A stretch of DNA of 51,037 nucleotides from Candidatus Ruminimicrobiellum bubulum (lineage in GTDB: Bacteria; Elusimicrobiota; Endomicrobiia; Endomicrobiales; Endomicrobiaceae). The stretch is from NCBI GenBank assembly GCA_017651625.1, contig JAGCCP010000003.1, positions 1-51,037 of the forward strand. The letters are read 5' to 3'. The translations under genes were made by a program, and so were the position numbers. The notes below the pieces were generated by a model. That model searched no databases. It was not told the DNA's origin and worked only from the letters and a program-made list of their open reading frames with translations. How positions within the stretch are numbered: the stretch's first letter is position 1; every line of letters begins with the position of its first letter. This document shows positions 6,506 to 34,816 of the stretch, piece by piece.

Positions 6506-7243
6506 ATGGAAAAACTTATAAAAGAACATACAATATCAAATTATGAATGTAACAGAAACGGAACCATAAAAATAATAGGGATATTTCATTTGTTGCAGGA
6601 TATGGCGGATGCTCATGCCGAAAAACTTAATGTAGGATACACTTTTTACAAACAAAATCATTTGGCTTGGGTAGGCAGAGCTTACCACTTAAAAATATAC
6701 TCTTTACCTAAAATTTTCGATAAAGTAATTCTTGAAACCTGGCCTTGTATAAGAACGGCTCTTATTGCAACAAGAGATTTTTTTATAAAAGATATCAACG
6801 GAAATATTCTAATTGCCGCTTCAAGCCAATGGGCAATGATAGATACAACAAAAATGAGACCTATAAAATTTGATGATTTCAATCTTACTTACGATGTGTT
6901 GCCGGAAAGAGCTGTGGAATCCGAATTCGCAAAAATCCAGGCACCGCAAAAAATTGATTTTGAAAAACGAATACAAATAAGAGAAGATGATATCGACAGT
7001 AACGGACATGTAAACAATTGCGTTTATCCTATGTGGGCAATGGAAACATTTGACGAACAATTTAAGAAAAATTTTATTTTAGACGAAATGGAAATAAACT
7101 TTAAAAAACCTGTTTTTAAACAAGATGATGTCGTAACGGCAAAAATTCAAAAAAATTCCGAAACGGATTTCACGATTTCTATAGGAACACCCGAAAAAGA
7201 AGCCGCACTTGTAAAAGCAAGATTCAAGCAGAAGATTGGATGA
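6506..7243 (+). CDS. acyl-ACP thioesterase (FatA/FatB family)
   Basis: A double-hotdog thioesterase of 245 aa that releases free fatty acids from acyl-carrier protein in the cytoplasm. The N-terminal hotdog has NRNG..KI..IFHLLQDMADAHAEKL and a WP.GL-like strand (TWPCIRTALIATRDF). The second hotdog carries the catalytic DIDSNGHVNN with Asn166 and His168. The ATG at 6506 has CGGAG eight bases upstream; 12 upstream in-frame codons are rejected because they overlap the -10 box. It is the only plus-strand gene in the window, alone under its own promoter. The stop TGA and the final Lys-Ile-Gly fall inside a GAAGATTGGATGA repeat. Confidence 0.9.
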   Translation: MEKLIKEHTISNYECNRNGTIKIIGIFHLLQDMADAHAEKLNVGYTFYKQNHLAWVGRAYHLKIYSLPKIFDKVILETWPCIRTALIATRDFFIKDINGNILIAASSQWAMIDTTKMRPIKFDDFNLTYDVLPERAVESEFAKIQAPQKIDFEKRIQIREDDIDSNGHVNNCVYPMWAMETFDEQFKKNFILDEMEINFKKPVFKQDDVVTAKIQKNSETDFTISIGTPEKEAALVKARFKQKIG

Positions 7244-29651: not shown

Positions 29652-29690
29652 AAAGACATACATCATTTTTACATGATGTATGCCTTTTTA
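29652..29690. terminator. bidirectional hairpin terminator before the giant gene
   Basis: CATACATCAT (29657-29666) pairs with ATGATGTATG (29673-29682) around a 6-nt loop, with a T-run on both strands. The small membrane protein gene stops inside the loop (TAA at 29669-29671). On the minus strand only 27 nt separate the stem from the giant-gene ATG, so any giant-gene promoter lies upstream, within the small gene, or the hairpin acts as an attenuator. Confidence 0.7.
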
Positions 29691-30142
29691 TATCGTTGAT
29701 AGATAACTATTTTACCAAAGGTAAATAGTAATCCCAAATATTTTAATATAAACAAGAATACAAACCCAAAGAAAAACAGCCTCAGTTTGGCATTACCCTC
29801 GACAGAAATCGATTTTAATACCGACACTGCTAATACAAGTTTAACATAATTGAAAAAATTGTCCGTATATATTCTTCTATCCGTTTTATCTATATCGAAA
29901 AACATTTTATTGTTTTGTGTCGGTGCCAATAAAATCTCTACATCTTTTGCAATATTATTGCATACCGTTTTTACTACATTTTTCGCATGATAGAACAAAT
30001 CACACTCTATTTCTATAATTTCAGAAATAGATGTCTTATTTCCCATCTCCGAACAAAATTTATCAAATAAATTTATAAAAGATAAATCTATCGTCGAGAA
30101 AAGAATAAAAAATGATAAAGCACATTTTAAAATACTTTTCAT
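29669..30142 (-). CDS. small membrane protein, unknown function
   Basis: A protein of 157 aa. An N-terminal signal-like segment (MKSILKCALSFFILFS) is followed by a soluble middle and two hydrophobic stretches (VKLVLAVSVL and LFFFGFVFLFILKYLGLLF), ending Lys-rich. I chose the ATG at 30142. It lies only 8 bp after a near-consensus -10 box, so its message is probably leaderless; a GTG six codons upstream overlaps the -10 box and cannot be used from that promoter. The gene lies directly upstream of the giant gene in the same direction, so a partner role is possible. No family is recognised. Confidence 0.65.
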   Translation of the reverse strand: MKSILKCALSFFILFSTIDLSFINLFDKFCSEMGNKTSISEIIEIECDLFYHAKNVVKTVCNNIAKDVEILLAPTQNNKMFFDIDKTDRRIYTDNFFNYVKLVLAVSVLKSISVEGNAKLRLFFFGFVFLFILKYLGLLFTFGKIVIYQRYKKAYIM

Positions 30143-30150
30143 ACATTTTA

Positions 30151-30179
30151 AGTATAGCACTTGAAAGCATTTTTATCAA
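30151..30179 (-). promoter_or_regulatory. sigma70-type promoter of the small membrane protein
   Basis: TTGATA (30174-30179), 17 bp, TATACT (30151-30156) on the minus strand. The predicted transcription start falls at or just before the ATG at 30142. It may also drive the giant gene by read-through. Confidence 0.75.
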
Positions 30180-30275: not shown

Positions 30276-31862
30276 CTATTTTTTGTTAATAAGAGCCGCT
30301 TTTATGAAGTTTGCAAACAAAGGATGCGGTCTTGTAGGCCTTGATTGGAACTCCGGATTAAATTGAACGGCTATAAACCAAGGATGATCTTTTATTTCAA
30401 CAATTTCAACATATTTATTTTCATCGTCCGAATAACCTGACACTTTAAGTCCTTTTTCTTCCAATACTTTAACATAATCTTTATTTACTTCATAACTGTG
30501 TCTGTGTCTTTCGCTTATAACATCTTTTTTGTATATTTCATAAGCTTTGGTATCTTTTGCTATATCACACTTCCAAGAACCGAGTCTCATAAAATGACCG
30601 TCTTTATTTTTTGCATTTGTTTGTATTATAACAGGAGTTTTTGCATTTTTATCGATATTCAAAGAATTTGCATCTTTCAGACCGCAAACATTTCTTGCAT
30701 ATTCGATAATAACGCTTTGCATACCTAAAGATATACCGAAGAACGGAATTTTATTCTCTCTTGCATATTTTATTACATTAAGTTTTCCTTCCAATGTTCC
30801 GCCGCTGTCTCCGTCGGGAGAAATAATTGCATTTACATCTTTCAAATCATGTTCCAAATGCTGAGAATCGGTATCCACATATTTTATTTTAACTTCGGTA
30901 ACATTTATTGCTCCGCCGTGTTTTAATGCTTCAAAAACACTCTTATAAGAATCTTTCAATTCTATAAATTTACCTGCAATTGCAACTGTAACCTGATGTT
31001 CCGGACATCTGCAGTTATGTATCATTTCATTCCATTGTTTTAAATCAATAGGCTTTGCATCAAGTTTCAAATATTTTACTATTAAATCATCTATTTTGTT
31101 CTCGTGTAATTGAACAGGAACTTCATAAATTGATGTTTGAACATCTCTTTCTTCTATTACGGCTTCTCTTTCCACATTACAGAACAATGATATTTTGTCT
31201 CTTATTTCATCGGTTAAATGTTGATCCATTCTGCAAAGGATTATCGACGGTTCTATTCCTATTTCTCTTAATTTTTGAACACTGTGTTGCGTAGGTTTTG
31301 TTTTAAGTTCTTCTGATGCTTTTATATATGGTATTAAGGTAACATGAACATACAAAACATTTTCTCTTCCGATATCATTTCTGAATTGTCTTATCGCTTC
31401 CAAGAAAGGTAACCCTTCTATATCACCAACCGTTCCGCCTATTTCTACCATAACAACATCACTGTCTCCTGCAACAGCTTTTAATCTTTCTTTTATTTCA
31501 TTTGTTATATGAGGAACTACTTGAACGGTTTTTCCTGCAAACTTTCCTTCAATTTCATCATTTAAAACTTTTTGATATATTCTTCCGGAAGTAACGGTAT
31601 TTACTTTTGTTGTTTCCTGATCTATAAATCTTTCATAATGTCCCAAATCCAAATCAGCTTCCATACCATCTATAGTAACAAAAACTTCTCCGTGTTGCAT
31701 AGGAGATAAAAGTCCCGGATTAATATTCAAATAAGGATCACATTTCAAAATATTTACTTTTAATCCTCTTGCTTTTAATAAACATGCAATTGATGCTGCC
31801 GTAATTCCTTTTCCAACAGAAGAAATTACTCCTCCGGTAACAAAAATATACTTCGTTTTCAT
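30276..31862 (-). CDS. pyrG: CTP synthase with a degenerate glutaminase domain
   Basis: A protein of 528 aa that makes CTP from UTP, ATP and ammonia. The synthase domain is intact (GGVISSVGKGITAAS at the start, then KCDPYLNINPG and DLDLGHYERF). In the class I glutaminase domain the nucleophile Cys of GICLGMQ is Ser378 (GISLGMQ, codon TCT). The catalytic His of FHPEF is Asn502 (FNPEF, codon AAT). The oxyanion loop PGGFG reads PDGDSGG near 346-352. Only Glu504 of the triad remains. Glutamine should not be hydrolysed, so the enzyme should depend on free ammonia. GGAG precedes the ATG. kdsB, which uses CTP, lies 37 bp upstream. Confidence 0.92.
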   Translation of the reverse strand: MKTKYIFVTGGVISSVGKGITAASIACLLKARGLKVNILKCDPYLNINPGLLSPMQHGEVFVTIDGMEADLDLGHYERFIDQETTKVNTVTSGRIYQKVLNDEIEGKFAGKTVQVVPHITNEIKERLKAVAGDSDVVMVEIGGTVGDIEGLPFLEAIRQFRNDIGRENVLYVHVTLIPYIKASEELKTKPTQHSVQKLREIGIEPSIILCRMDQHLTDEIRDKISLFCNVEREAVIEERDVQTSIYEVPVQLHENKIDDLIVKYLKLDAKPIDLKQWNEMIHNCRCPEHQVTVAIAGKFIELKDSYKSVFEALKHGGAINVTEVKIKYVDTDSQHLEHDLKDVNAIISPDGDSGGTLEGKLNVIKYARENKIPFFGISLGMQSVIIEYARNVCGLKDANSLNIDKNAKTPVIIQTNAKNKDGHFMRLGSWKCDIAKDTKAYEIYKKDVISERHRHSYEVNKDYVKVLEEKGLKVSGYSDDENKYVEIVEIKDHPWFIAVQFNPEFQSRPTRPHPLFANFIKAALINKK

Positions 31863-31899: not shown

Positions 31900-32634
31900 T
31901 TATTTAAGCGCTTTTTTAACTTTTGCAACATCTTCTACTACATTAACATCCTGAAGATCTTTACTCGATATAATAACTTTTATTTTTTTGCCTTGTTCCA
32001 ATGCTCTTAACTGTTCCAAACTTTCGGTAATTTCAAGTTTTGTTTGTTTTGATTTTGTAAAATCACAAACAAATTTTTTTGTATAACCATATACACCTAT
32101 ATGCTTATAATATTCAGCTTTATTCTTGTTTTTTTCATCTCTTAAAAAAGGAATAGGATATCTTGAAAAATAAAGAGCATAATGGTTTTTATCGAATATA
32201 ACTTTTACGGTATTAGGATTTGCAATATCGTCGGTAGGTTTCATCTTATAAGCAACAGTCAAATACTCGAGTTTCCTATCTTTTTTAAACTCTTCCACCA
32301 TTTTTTCTACAAGTTTTTTATCTATTAAAGGTTCGTCACCTTGAACATTAACAAAAACATTGTAATTTTTCAAATATTTATTTGCAACATAAGCAACTCT
32401 ATCTGTTCCGCTTTTTAAATTTACAGGGGTCATAAAGACATTGTATCCTGCTGATTTTACTACATCAAAAATTCTTTTGTCATCGGTAGCAACAGCAACA
32501 CAATCTATTCCTCTACATTTTGATACTTTACTTACAACATGAAGTATAAGAGGTTTATTATTTATTAAATACAAAGGTTTACCCGGAAATCTGCTTGATG
32601 CATATCTTGCGGGAATGACTACAGCTGTTTTCAT
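31900..32634 (-). CDS. kdsB: 3-deoxy-manno-octulosonate cytidylyltransferase
   Basis: A protein of 244 aa that activates KDO with CTP to CMP-KDO for lipid A-core synthesis. The N-terminal VVIPARYASSRFPGKPL nucleotide-binding loop, DDKRI, VNVQGDEPLI and YKHIGVYGY fit the family. I chose the ATG at 32634 because the protein then begins like other KdsB enzymes (MKTAVVIPARY); the frame extends upstream through a hairpin, which is unlikely to be translated. Only a weak AGAG ribosome site is present. A terminator-like hairpin lies 22 bp upstream. Confidence 0.93.
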   Translation of the reverse strand: MKTAVVIPARYASSRFPGKPLYLINNKPLILHVVSKVSKCRGIDCVAVATDDKRIFDVVKSAGYNVFMTPVNLKSGTDRVAYVANKYLKNYNVFVNVQGDEPLIDKKLVEKMVEEFKKDRKLEYLTVAYKMKPTDDIANPNTVKVIFDKNHYALYFSRYPIPFLRDEKNKNKAEYYKHIGVYGYTKKFVCDFTKSKQTKLEITESLEQLRALEQGKKIKVIISSKDLQDVNVVEDVAKVKKALK

Positions 32635-32641
32635 TTCTTTA

Positions 32642-32690
32642 TCTCTCTTTAAAAAGCAATGTATACCTCTATCAATATACATTGCATTTT
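32642..32690 (-). terminator. hairpin with U-tract between rfaE and kdsB
   Basis: GCAATGTATA (32656-32665) pairs with TATACATTGC (32676-32685) around 10 nt. On the minus strand it is followed by TTTTTAAAG. It lies 22 bp before the kdsB ATG, so it is either a terminator with a cryptic kdsB promoter or an attenuator. Confidence 0.65.
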
Positions 32691-32718
32691 CATGAACCAA
32701 ATTTATAAAACAAATTTT

Positions 32719-33705
32719 TTATTTTCTGTTAAAATTCTTTATTGTTCTTATAATTTCTTCTATCGTAACGGTTGCGGTACCTACTTTACCCACAACAACA
32801 CCTGCAGCAAAGTTTGCTATTTCTGCAGCTTCTACAAGTTTCCACTTTGCAGCCAAAGCAAGCGTCATTGTTGCAATAACCGTATCTCCTGCACCGGTAA
32901 CATCATAAACTTCTTTTGCTCTTGTAGGAATATGTGTAATTTTATTTTTTTCTATTACCGTCATACCCTTTTCACCTCTGGTAATAAGAACGGAGTCAGA
33001 TTGTAATAATTTCAATATTTTCTTACCGAGGTTTGCAATGTCGGCATCCGTTTTTATTCCTTGATGTTGAGCATTCATACCTTCTATTGCTTCTTTTGTA
33101 TTAGGAGTCATACAAGTTATATGTTTATATTTCTTAAAATTTTCTACTTTCGGATCAACCGTTACAGGAATTTTTTTCTTTTTTGCGATTGATATAATCT
33201 TTTTCAATACTTTATCAGTTACTATTCCTTTTGCATAGTCGGAAATTATCACTCCGTCAACTTGTTTCATAACATAGTCGATACTTTTTAAAATATTCTC
33301 TTCGGTCTTACCGGAAAAAGCACCTTTAATTTCTTTATCAACTCTAACAACTTGCTGATTGGATGCTATTATTCTGGTTTTTAATGTTGTAGGTCTCTGT
33401 TTATCTACAACGATATAGTTTGTATTAATCTTTTTATCTTCAAGCATTTCTTTCATGTGCAAACCGTTAAGATCATCTCCTATAACGGTAATAATATATG
33501 CTTTTGCACCGAGTGATGTTATGTTACTTGCAACGTTTCCCGCACCACCCAAAGTTTCCGTTTCGCTTTTTACTTCTACAACAGGAACAGGAGCTTCAGG
33601 AGAAATTCTTGAAACTTTTCCCCAAATAAACCTGTCGACCATAGTATCGCCGACTACCAAAATCGACTTATTTTTTAAACTTAATACTTTCTTTAATAAA
33701 TCCAT
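32719..33705 (-). CDS. rfaE: D-glycero-beta-D-manno-heptose-7-phosphate kinase
   Basis: A PfkB-family sugar kinase of 328 aa, equal to the first domain of HldE (also called HldA/RfaE1). It phosphorylates heptose-7-phosphate at C1 in the ADP-heptose pathway. Visible motifs are SILVVGDTMVDRFIWGKVSRISPEAPVPVV-like opening residues, LGGAGNVASN near 52-61 and the catalytic VTGAGDTV near 267-274. The cytidylyl/adenylyltransferase half of HldE is absent and must be encoded elsewhere. AAGGAG precedes the ATG. hldD lies upstream in the same direction. Confidence 0.92.
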   Translation of the reverse strand: MDLLKKVLSLKNKSILVVGDTMVDRFIWGKVSRISPEAPVPVVEVKSETETLGGAGNVASNITSLGAKAYIITVIGDDLNGLHMKEMLEDKKINTNYIVVDKQRPTTLKTRIIASNQQVVRVDKEIKGAFSGKTEENILKSIDYVMKQVDGVIISDYAKGIVTDKVLKKIISIAKKKKIPVTVDPKVENFKKYKHITCMTPNTKEAIEGMNAQHQGIKTDADIANLGKKILKLLQSDSVLITRGEKGMTVIEKNKITHIPTRAKEVYDVTGAGDTVIATMTLALAAKWKLVEAAEIANFAAGVVVGKVGTATVTIEEIIRTIKNFNRK

Positions 33706-33856: not shown

Positions 33857-34816
33857 TTACAAGTAGCTTTTATTTTTTAAATAACTGCAATAATCTTTTA
33901 TGGAATCTTCAAGTTCCATAAATTTATGAGTACAGCCGGCTTTTCTTATTTTATCCATTTTTGCTTCAGTAAAATATTGATATTTTCCTCTCAAAATTTC
34001 GGGCATATCGAAATATTCTATATTTGTCTTTTTACCTACTGCGGCAAACATTGATCTTGCAATATCGTTCCAACTTCTTGCTTTGCCTGTACCGATATTA
34101 AACAATCCCGTATTTTTAGGGTTTTTCAACAAAAACATCATCACTTCAACAACATCTTTTATATAAACGAAATCCCTCAAAGAATCACCATCACCATATT
34201 TACTGTTATAAGATTTAAATAATCTTATTATTCCTTTTTGTGCAACATCATCATAAGTTTTACATATAACACTTTTCATCGTACCCTTATGATACTCGTT
34301 AGGGCCGAAGACATTAAAAAATTTTATTCCGGTAACTTTATCGTCATATTTATTTCTCAAAAGCCATAAATCGAAAAGTTGCTTTGAATATCCGTACATG
34401 TTTAGCGGAGCAAGCTTATCTATATCACATTGATCGTCGTATCCGTTTTCTCCGTTACCGTAAGTTGCCGCAGATGATGCATAAACAAAAGGAATTCCCA
34501 GTTCCATTGCCCATAATGCAAGAGTTTTGGAATATTCGAAATTATTATGAATGTAATAATTTGCGTCAGTTTGTGTTGTGGAACTACATGCTCCGAGATG
34601 AACTATAGCTTGCGGTTTTTGAATTTTTTTATCTTTTACGGCTTGTATGAAATCTTCTTTTTGCATATAATCGTAAAATTTTTTACCTACAAGATTTTTC
34701 CATTTTTCGCCGTTATCAAGATGGTCAACGACTAAAATATCGTCTATTTTTTCTTGATTAAGTTTCCACAAGAAACAACTTCCTATAAAACCTGCACCAC
34801 CGGTAAGAATTATCAT
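33857..34816 (-). CDS. hldD: ADP-L-glycero-D-manno-heptose 6-epimerase
   Basis: An extended short-chain dehydrogenase of 319 aa that makes ADP-L-glycero-D-manno-heptose for the LPS inner core. It starts with the NADP-binding ILTGGAGFIGS. It has the catalytic YSKQ (Tyr and Lys near 140-144, in MYGYSKQLF), FFNVFGPNEYHKG and DFVYIKDVV, all typical of HldD (RfaD). GAGG lies seven bases before the ATG. It lies 56 bp after the M42 peptidase gene and upstream of rfaE. Confidence 0.94.
   Translation of the reverse strand: MIILTGGAGFIGSCFLWKLNQEKIDDILVVDHLDNGEKWKNLVGKKFYDYMQKEDFIQAVKDKKIQKPQAIVHLGACSSTTQTDANYYIHNNFEYSKTLALWAMELGIPFVYASSAATYGNGENGYDDQCDIDKLAPLNMYGYSKQLFDLWLLRNKYDDKVTGIKFFNVFGPNEYHKGTMKSVICKTYDDVAQKGIIRLFKSYNSKYGDGDSLRDFVYIKDVVEVMMFLLKNPKNTGLFNIGTGKARSWNDIARSMFAAVGKKTNIEYFDMPEILRGKYQYFTEAKMDKIRKAGCTHKFMELEDSIKDYCSYLKNKSYL

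Follow-up and report, generated by a model that had tools for sequence, protein, structure and literature searches.

A CTP synthase without its glutaminase site in Candidatus Ruminimicrobiellum bubulum that probably uses ammonia alone, and an apparently recurrent loss of the glutaminase in other bacteria

The window analysed here, a stretch of 51,037 nucleotides from Candidatus Ruminimicrobiellum bubulum (assembly GCA_017651625.1, contig JAGCCP010000003.1), encodes at 30276..31862 on the minus strand a glutaminase-dead CTP synthase paralogue of 528 aa (PyrG type A). From its residues we infer, with considerable confidence, a working CTP synthase that cannot use glutamine and takes ammonia as its sole nitrogen donor. 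CTP synthase is the standard example of a glutamine amidotransferase activated by GTP, and we lean, with less assurance, toward a wider reading in which glutaminase loss is a recurrent switch: a dozen or more lineages, apparently including the whole Sporosarcina group, would make CTP from ammonia alone, and the window enzyme would show a stepwise path to that state. The first-pass annotation had placed the gene exactly, leaving the strand unstated.

The ORF starts with ATG behind an AAAGGAG ribosome-binding site, and its product (P0001) scores 724 bits against TIGR00337 (cut-off 463) and 755 bits against NF003792 in NCBIfam, with 401 bits for PF06418 and 112 bits for PF00117. Both marks of the PyrG family are present, an N-terminal amidoligase with ATP/UTP/Mg residues and a class I GATase fold. 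The synthase (amidoligase) domain (residues 1-267; 31062..31862, minus strand, as all positions within this gene) keeps its ATP/UTP/Mg site by PF06418 and residue comparison, and the GAT (glutaminase) domain (residues about 290-528; 30279..30995) keeps its predicted fold with the active site lost. The AlphaFold2 model built from a 24-sequence alignment had a mean pLDDT of 88.6, falling below 50 at residues 49-57 (the gate/tunnel segment) and 352-354, and matched E. coli CTP synthase with a Foldseek TM of 0.95.

Residue names such as Cys379 and His515 follow E. coli CTP synthase. At the nucleophile Cys379 the window enzyme has Ser378 (codon TCT, 30729..30731) and at the catalytic His515 it has Asn502 (codon AAT, 30357..30359), so that of the triad of a glutamine-hydrolysing CTP synthase only Glu504 (equivalent to Glu517; 30351..30353) is kept; the first-pass annotation had read both codons and the loss of two triad residues correctly. 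It was also right that the oxyanion loop is altered: the oxyanion/L11 lid (residues 348-357; 30792..30821) reads SPDGDSGGTLEG, with PDGDSGGT at the position of PGGFGxRG in normal enzymes (G351D, F353D, R356G and G357T, G352 being retained). The loss is wider than had been noticed. Asn402 stands at Glu403 (E403N; 30657..30659) and Ser456 at Arg470 of the GTP cleft (R470S; 30495..30497), two positions that we take to bind glutamine, and the lid and the E403/R470 pair expected of a glutamine-hydrolysing enzyme are thus both missing. Among the residues for GTP activation, Leu51-Leu52 replace Thr51-Met52 of the GTP cleft (31707..31712), Ile104 replaces Arg104 (31551..31553; Arg in 49/49 comparison sequences), Arg356 is lost with the lid, and Phe424 replaces Thr438 (T438F/L in the dead copies; 30591..30593) next to a partly deleted wing loop. 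K297, R440 and R468 are retained, and the set formed by T51, the R104 loop, T438, R440 and R468 is broken overall. The GTP cleft has been described as residues 50-55, 297-301, 353-356, 438-441, 468 and 470 (PMC9138612; contacts also in PMC8325340), and Thr51, Met52, the 104-110 loop, Arg356, Thr438 and Arg470 are implicated in GTP activation (PMC9138612).

The seven dead and two half-way copies discussed below were aligned with 49 comparison sequences (48 from the same phylum and E. coli; one sequence counted as normal, L058, is itself degenerate). The dead clade departs from the comparison set at 21 positions that are at least 95% conserved among the 49: V13, L16, D48, T51, M52, R104, I138, Y298, G351, F353, G354, R356, G357, C379, E403, Q429, T438, Y444, R470, L497 and H515. 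The changes V13I, L16V, D48N, I138M, Y444W and L497Y/F have no Gln/GTP-site explanation. In L003, 11 of the 21 conserved Gln/GTP sites were lost vs 4 of the 127 other conserved sites (Fisher p 3e-8; reference of 216 Cys-bearing sequences, half-way forms excluded), for a site list compiled from the literature and background knowledge with the outcome of the first comparison already known. The statement that the synthase half is normal holds for the most part: 27 of 30 ATP/UTP/Mg/gate positions are the same, as are all 21 residues of a shorter key list (21/21 as in E. coli; it omits L16, K239 and V241). Of these three, K239 and V241 also differ between normal enzymes, and L16V is conservative and falls on a position that contacts ATP (assigned by offset from the Drosophila numbering, PMC8325340). 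The statement does not extend to seven near-invariant positions of this half (V13I, L16V, D48N, T51L, M52L, R104I and I138M), and the unexplained L16V and D48N count against an ammonia-only enzyme.

The dead CTP synthase is under strong purifying selection. Pairwise dN/dS among dead copies was 0.006-0.021 for the synthase domain and 0.04-0.11 for the GAT domain (5 pairs), and among normal copies of the same genomes 0.012-0.024 and 0.026-0.052, respectively (4 pairs), all of them rough ratios because some dS exceed 1. The GAT half thus evolves faster in dead than in normal copies (0.04-0.11 vs 0.026-0.052). These are not the marks of a pseudogene, the frame being intact in 7/7 genomes and dN/dS lying at 0.006-0.11 by domain. 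A sequencing or assembly error is ruled out, because seven genomes out of 61 searched, counting that of the window, share the dead state.

Comparison with PyrG of related genomes, as the first-pass annotation had advised, placed the loss within the family: of 76 family genomes searched, 63 gave a match, seven with a dead and two with a half-way copy, and in the other 54 the only copy was 49-59% identical to the dead one. Within the genus of the window, the dead copy was seen in 6/11 genomes. The half-way copies (genus g13: G034 and G098) keep the Cys and have His515Asn and a lost lid. A second, normal pyrG in the genome, which the first-pass annotation had listed as evidence against its reading, does exist: it lies at C54:271573-273132 (type B) of the same genome (G000; 1.88 Mb, 100% complete). 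The organism therefore need not depend on the window enzyme, and the ammonia-only prediction, which the missing Gln-site and GTP residues, the kept synthase site and the strong selection support, is not disproved by it. Two side observations concern other members of the family. L058 (G018; 78% complete, single match) has Gly at 379 and has lost 12/21 Gln/GTP sites with the synthase site kept; it lies outside the 50-sequence tree and is possibly a second, separate loss within the family. In G028, G033 and G036 (each 99% complete), no CTP synthase was found by protein or by PF06418 (E up to 1): either the genes are absent from the data or these organisms depend on cytidine that they import or salvage.

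By origin the dead copy is the kdsB-linked pyrG native to this lineage. In all nine family genomes carrying a dead or half-way copy, it adjoins kdsB, and in other families of the order a single normal PyrG stands in an hldK-kdsB-pyrG arrangement in 5/7 genomes (L067-L071); the arrangement was not found in the two f3 genomes of the order. In a tree of 50 sequences (IQ-TREE, quick search, SH-aLRT support only), dead and half-way copies formed one clade (100) within the group of L067-L071 (100), i.e., the single-copy PyrG of four other families of the order, with f3 elsewhere. The type B copies grouped together (99), with the distant family f13 of the same phylum as their sister (100). This suggests a transfer, and the normal copy seems to have come into the family from a distant lineage within the phylum. 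The congeners G004 and G009 have hldK-kdsB with no dead pyrG alongside, and the dead copy is therefore dispensable.

With two copies in one cell, the dead one might be a regulatory pseudo-subunit that makes little CTP itself and co-assembles with normal PyrG, altering its activity, feedback or filaments. Both copies are present in six of the seven dead-copy genomes, and the L4 loop, which a neighbouring subunit contributes to the GTP site (PMC9138612), is changed here. We regard this as unlikely, however: the key synthase residues are under very strong selection, which would be superfluous in a mere regulator, the two copies of G000 are only 51% identical and come from different lineages, and no normal copy was seen in the half-way genome G098 or the dead-copy genome G001 (88% complete).

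The gene neighbourhood suggests where an ammonia-only enzyme might deliver its product. Upstream of the CTP synthase by 37 bases lies kdsB (31900..32700, minus strand), encoding CMP-Kdo synthetase, a CTP user, followed by rfaE1/hldK for heptose-7-phosphate kinase (32719..33705, minus strand) and hldD for ADP-heptose epimerase (33857..34816, minus strand). Supplying CTP for CMP-Kdo and LPS synthesis next door is perhaps the chief job of the dead copy, a weaker suggestion than that of ammonia use, as it is taken from gene order alone and the kdsB linkage is older than the glutaminase loss. On the other side, orf163 (29669-30160, minus strand; 163 aa, hydrophobic-looking) lies between the CTP synthase and a giant ORF; it had no NCBIfam match and evolves quickly (37-91% identity between congeners with CTP synthases 97-100% identical). 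The giant ORF (9425-29659, minus strand; 6744 aa) seems by eye to have repeated sections and perhaps encodes a multi-domain protein.

Ammonia might instead be supplied in trans from a different glutaminase or amidotransferase subunit and not come from solvent, in keeping with the predicted retention of the GAT fold and with the intact state of most other GATases of G000. We doubt this to a similar degree as the pseudo-subunit, since among eight window proteins NCBIfam revealed no free-standing glutaminase and the neighbouring orf163 matched nothing. Six of the seven other class I GATase genes of G000 have the Cys motif (L172, L173, L174, L175, L178 and L179; the seventh, L177, gave no motif match), by which a general glutaminase loss in this genome is rejected. 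An ammonium transporter is present in G000 and its congener G003, i.e., in two of the three focal-clade genomes tested, and with most GATases bearing the Cys motif this speaks against a genome-wide move away from glutamine. Selection for escape from glutamine-analogue antibiotics of the DON/acivicin type is a decidedly remote explanation. DON covalently modifies the active-site Cys, and an enzyme so modified can still make CTP with NH3 (PMC9138612), but no such biosynthetic cluster was recognised by eye among the window ORFs and most other GATases of G000 keep their Cys. That the gene is a decaying, functionless relic is a shade less credible still: it is missing beside kdsB in two congeners, and the other 54 matched family genomes have only the 49-59% identical copy, but the intact frame in 7/7 genomes, a dN/dS far below 1 in both halves and the ribosome-binding site all argue against decay.

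In the ammonia-only enzyme that we prefer, the GAT domain would be retained as a folded scaffold in which the nucleophile, the His, the lid, the presumed glutamine-binding residues and most of those for GTP activation have been replaced, UTP would still be phosphorylated with ATP at the synthase site, and the amine would come from free NH3 that enters out of solution. Losing the GTP site may itself help the use of ammonia, because bound GTP covers the entry point of outside NH3: the GTP site is reported to cover the NH3 entry hole (PMC8325340, PMC9138612), and GTP inhibits NH3-dependent CTP formation by the E. coli enzyme (PMC9138612). The advantage would not be general, as the L. lactis enzyme shows no such inhibition unless it is DON-modified (PMC9138612). 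Historically, a normal pyrG would have been acquired, after which the resident copy lost its glutaminase stepwise, or vanished; the lid, the His and the GTP site would have gone first and the Cys later. Its likely role would be to provide extra CTP independently of glutamine and GTP.

The first-pass annotation had called such a CTP synthase unusual, which is true for CTP synthases overall, although the same loss recurs in other bacteria. A pattern scan (P..G[IL](Ser/Ala/Thr)LGMQ) of an 84,980-species collection, which detects Ser (TCN), Ala and Thr and is blind to Gly and AGY-Ser forms, gave 55 stretches. Of these, 49 belong to CTP synthases (42 with Ser, 7 with Ala), and 43 of the 49 lie outside the window's family. 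The six remaining stretches were discarded as not CTP synthase (L118, L119, L123, L143, L158 and L171). One of these, L118 of an Alistipes sp. from goat caecum (around 6827-6856; 369 aa, GISLGMQ with Ser at the Cys position), is perhaps a carbamoyl phosphate synthase small subunit by size and motif, possibly in an ammonia-only form. Among the Cys-less matches outside the family are Tissierella creatinophila DSM 6911, Atopostipes suicloacalis DSM 15692, Erysipelothrix urinaevulpis, four records of Sporosarcina, Bacteroidales of the gut and 19 MAGs whose names are of the biogas-digester type. A Cys-bearing copy was not seen in 34 of the 43 genomes (three of the 34 being cultured strains by title): 32 showed a single, Cys-less CTP synthase gene (that of G108 split over two contigs), and G109 and G134 have two copies each, both Cys-less. 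The other nine have one Cys-less and one Cys-bearing copy (the latter cut just after the Cys in G128). Cys-less enzymes that are apparently the sole copy in cultured bacteria suggest that they make CTP in vivo, unless cytidine is salvaged.

Relatives of selected matches extended the picture. Around one Sporosarcina genome, 31 of 51 had Ser, Gly or Ala in place of the Cys. Each of the 51 gave one PF06418 match, and G134 among them has a second, partial copy; the Sporosarcina group of our reading is this sample of 51, i.e., members of the genus, as presumed from four record titles, and near relatives. In this set (L324-L418) the Cys is absent in 31 genomes, yet His515, Glu517, Glu403 and Arg470 are kept in the listed sequences. 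At least eight Cys-less forms occurred among 52 genomes with a match around Tissierella (60 searched), six among 51 added full-length sequences around digester genome G116 (59/60 with a match), and two (G102 and G142) among 43 genomes with a match around the Bacteroidales (49 searched). In the last set L391 of G199 keeps its Cys with H515L and E517D, and scoring by Cys state misses dead forms such as this one. L391 is about 90-93% identical to L121 and L170 (also Bacteroidales); the His is lost and the Glu changed in all three, and the Cys is kept in one of them, another stepwise glutaminase loss.

Changes of Cys state (INDEPENDENCE) were counted on 307 full-length sequences (218 Cys, 89 not), left from 324 distinct ones after dropping those below 480 aa. 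At the fewest, 28 changes were needed on the synthase-domain tree and 25 on the full-length tree without trait columns; collapsing the branches with SH below 95, and reading polytomies so as to minimise the count, left 13 and 17, and collapse at SH 99 left 11 and 12. These counts hold for this set and give no rate, because the trees came from FastTree and sampling started from known hits. One or more of 13 Gln/GTP sites were changed in 79/89 Cys-less vs 19/218 Cys-bearing sequences, and one or more of 13 synthase sites in 3/89 vs 1/218 (two of the three being gaps in cut sequences). In 13 independent pairs on supported branches, a Gln/GTP change accompanied Cys loss in 7.2 and ran counter to it in 0.7 (means), with a median p of 0.039 (range 0.008-0.22) for the composite test of coupled loss; the per-residue tests have low power, e.g., Thr51 with 4.3 pairs with and 0.0 against of 13 (median p 0.125). 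Cys-less enzymes outside the focal clade mostly keep His515 (71/82), Glu403 (80/82) and Arg470 (77/82), and less often Thr51 (36/82) and Thr438 (34/82); many of them have therefore lost the nucleophile and some GTP residues and not the rest of the Gln site. Under the recurrent-switch reading, the window enzyme would be one of the most dismantled cases, in which a normal copy was gained, the lid, His and GTP site were lost, and then the Cys. Ser is the commonest replacement at 379 (57 S, 20 G and 12 A of 89), yet that Ser378 serves as a new nucleophile with glutaminase activity retained is the least probable of the alternatives, since in the focal clade His, lid, Glu403 and Arg470 are gone too and elsewhere the position varies between S, G and A, which means that a hydroxyl is not needed.

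The ecological reason for such losses may lie in ammonia-rich habitats, a link for which the data are suggestive only. Biogas-MAG-style names were found for 19 of the 43 confirmed non-focal matches vs at most 1635 of 84,980 in the collection, a pointer and not a test because the matches are phylogenetically clustered; nine of the 19 names bear prefixes of PMC7038595 (AS05jafATM, AS08sgBPME, AS20ysBPTH and AS21ysBPME), and ten were judged by style. The ammonium transporter, taken as a habitat proxy in 80 genomes hand-picked from 343, gave no significant difference (2/48 non-focal Cys-less genomes vs 4/29 Cys-only relatives; Fisher p 0.19) and was present in 14/14 control genomes. For the window itself, the suggestion of an ammonia-rich habitat agrees with the origin of Ruminimicrobiellum from the rumen, perhaps in association with ciliates (PMC11257099), and sits less well with the ammonium transporter in two of the three focal genomes tested. 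Most free-living genera of the Endomicrobiaceae encode AmtB, GOGAT and glutamine synthetase (PMC11257099), and CTP goes unmentioned in the main text of that paper. Sporosarcina pasteurii is reported to require ammonia and to have no glutamine synthetase activity; some strains required glutamine, and strain DSM33 grew without it (PMC7775470).

If natural ammonia-only forms exist and have arisen many times, the annotation "glutamine hydrolysing" is wrong for them, inhibitors of the glutamine site should miss them (CTP synthase has been discussed as a drug target, PMC8325340), and they are a candidate cause of the ammonia need of some bacteria. If the switch is indeed recurrent, Cys-less lineages would depend on ammonia for nucleotide synthesis. 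The family offers natural variants that separate the synthase, glutaminase and GTP-activation functions. Among open-licence papers, our searches brought up no naturally occurring CTP synthase described as lacking its glutaminase residues.

The window enzyme shares with E. coli PyrG (TIGR00337) the two domains, about 50% identity over the full length, the key synthase residues and the predicted fold (TM 0.95), and differs from it in having no nucleophile, His or lid and in lacking the presumed Gln-binding and most GTP-activation residues. The family NF004836 (CTP synthase C-terminal region-related (seleno)protein) has a related GAT-like domain, against which P0001 scores 142 bits (below the 260-bit cut-off), but this is a 228-position model of the GAT part only, without a synthase domain. 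In carbamoyl phosphate synthetase I of ureotelic vertebrates, a GAT domain with a Cys-to-Ser change is kept as a scaffold and ammonia is the sole donor; the window enzyme may work in the same way, in a different enzyme and pathway. Ammonia-dependent NAD synthetases lack the glutaminase domain, whereas the window CTP synthase keeps it in a dead form. NAD synthetases as a whole are one amidation family with glutamine- and ammonia-using branches (PMC3376133). An experimental precedent is the E. coli mutant G352P, which has no Gln-dependent activity and is almost fully active with NH4Cl (PMC9138612); that is an artificial point mutant, whereas the window enzyme is natural and conserved, keeps G352 and has largely lost its Gln/GTP site.
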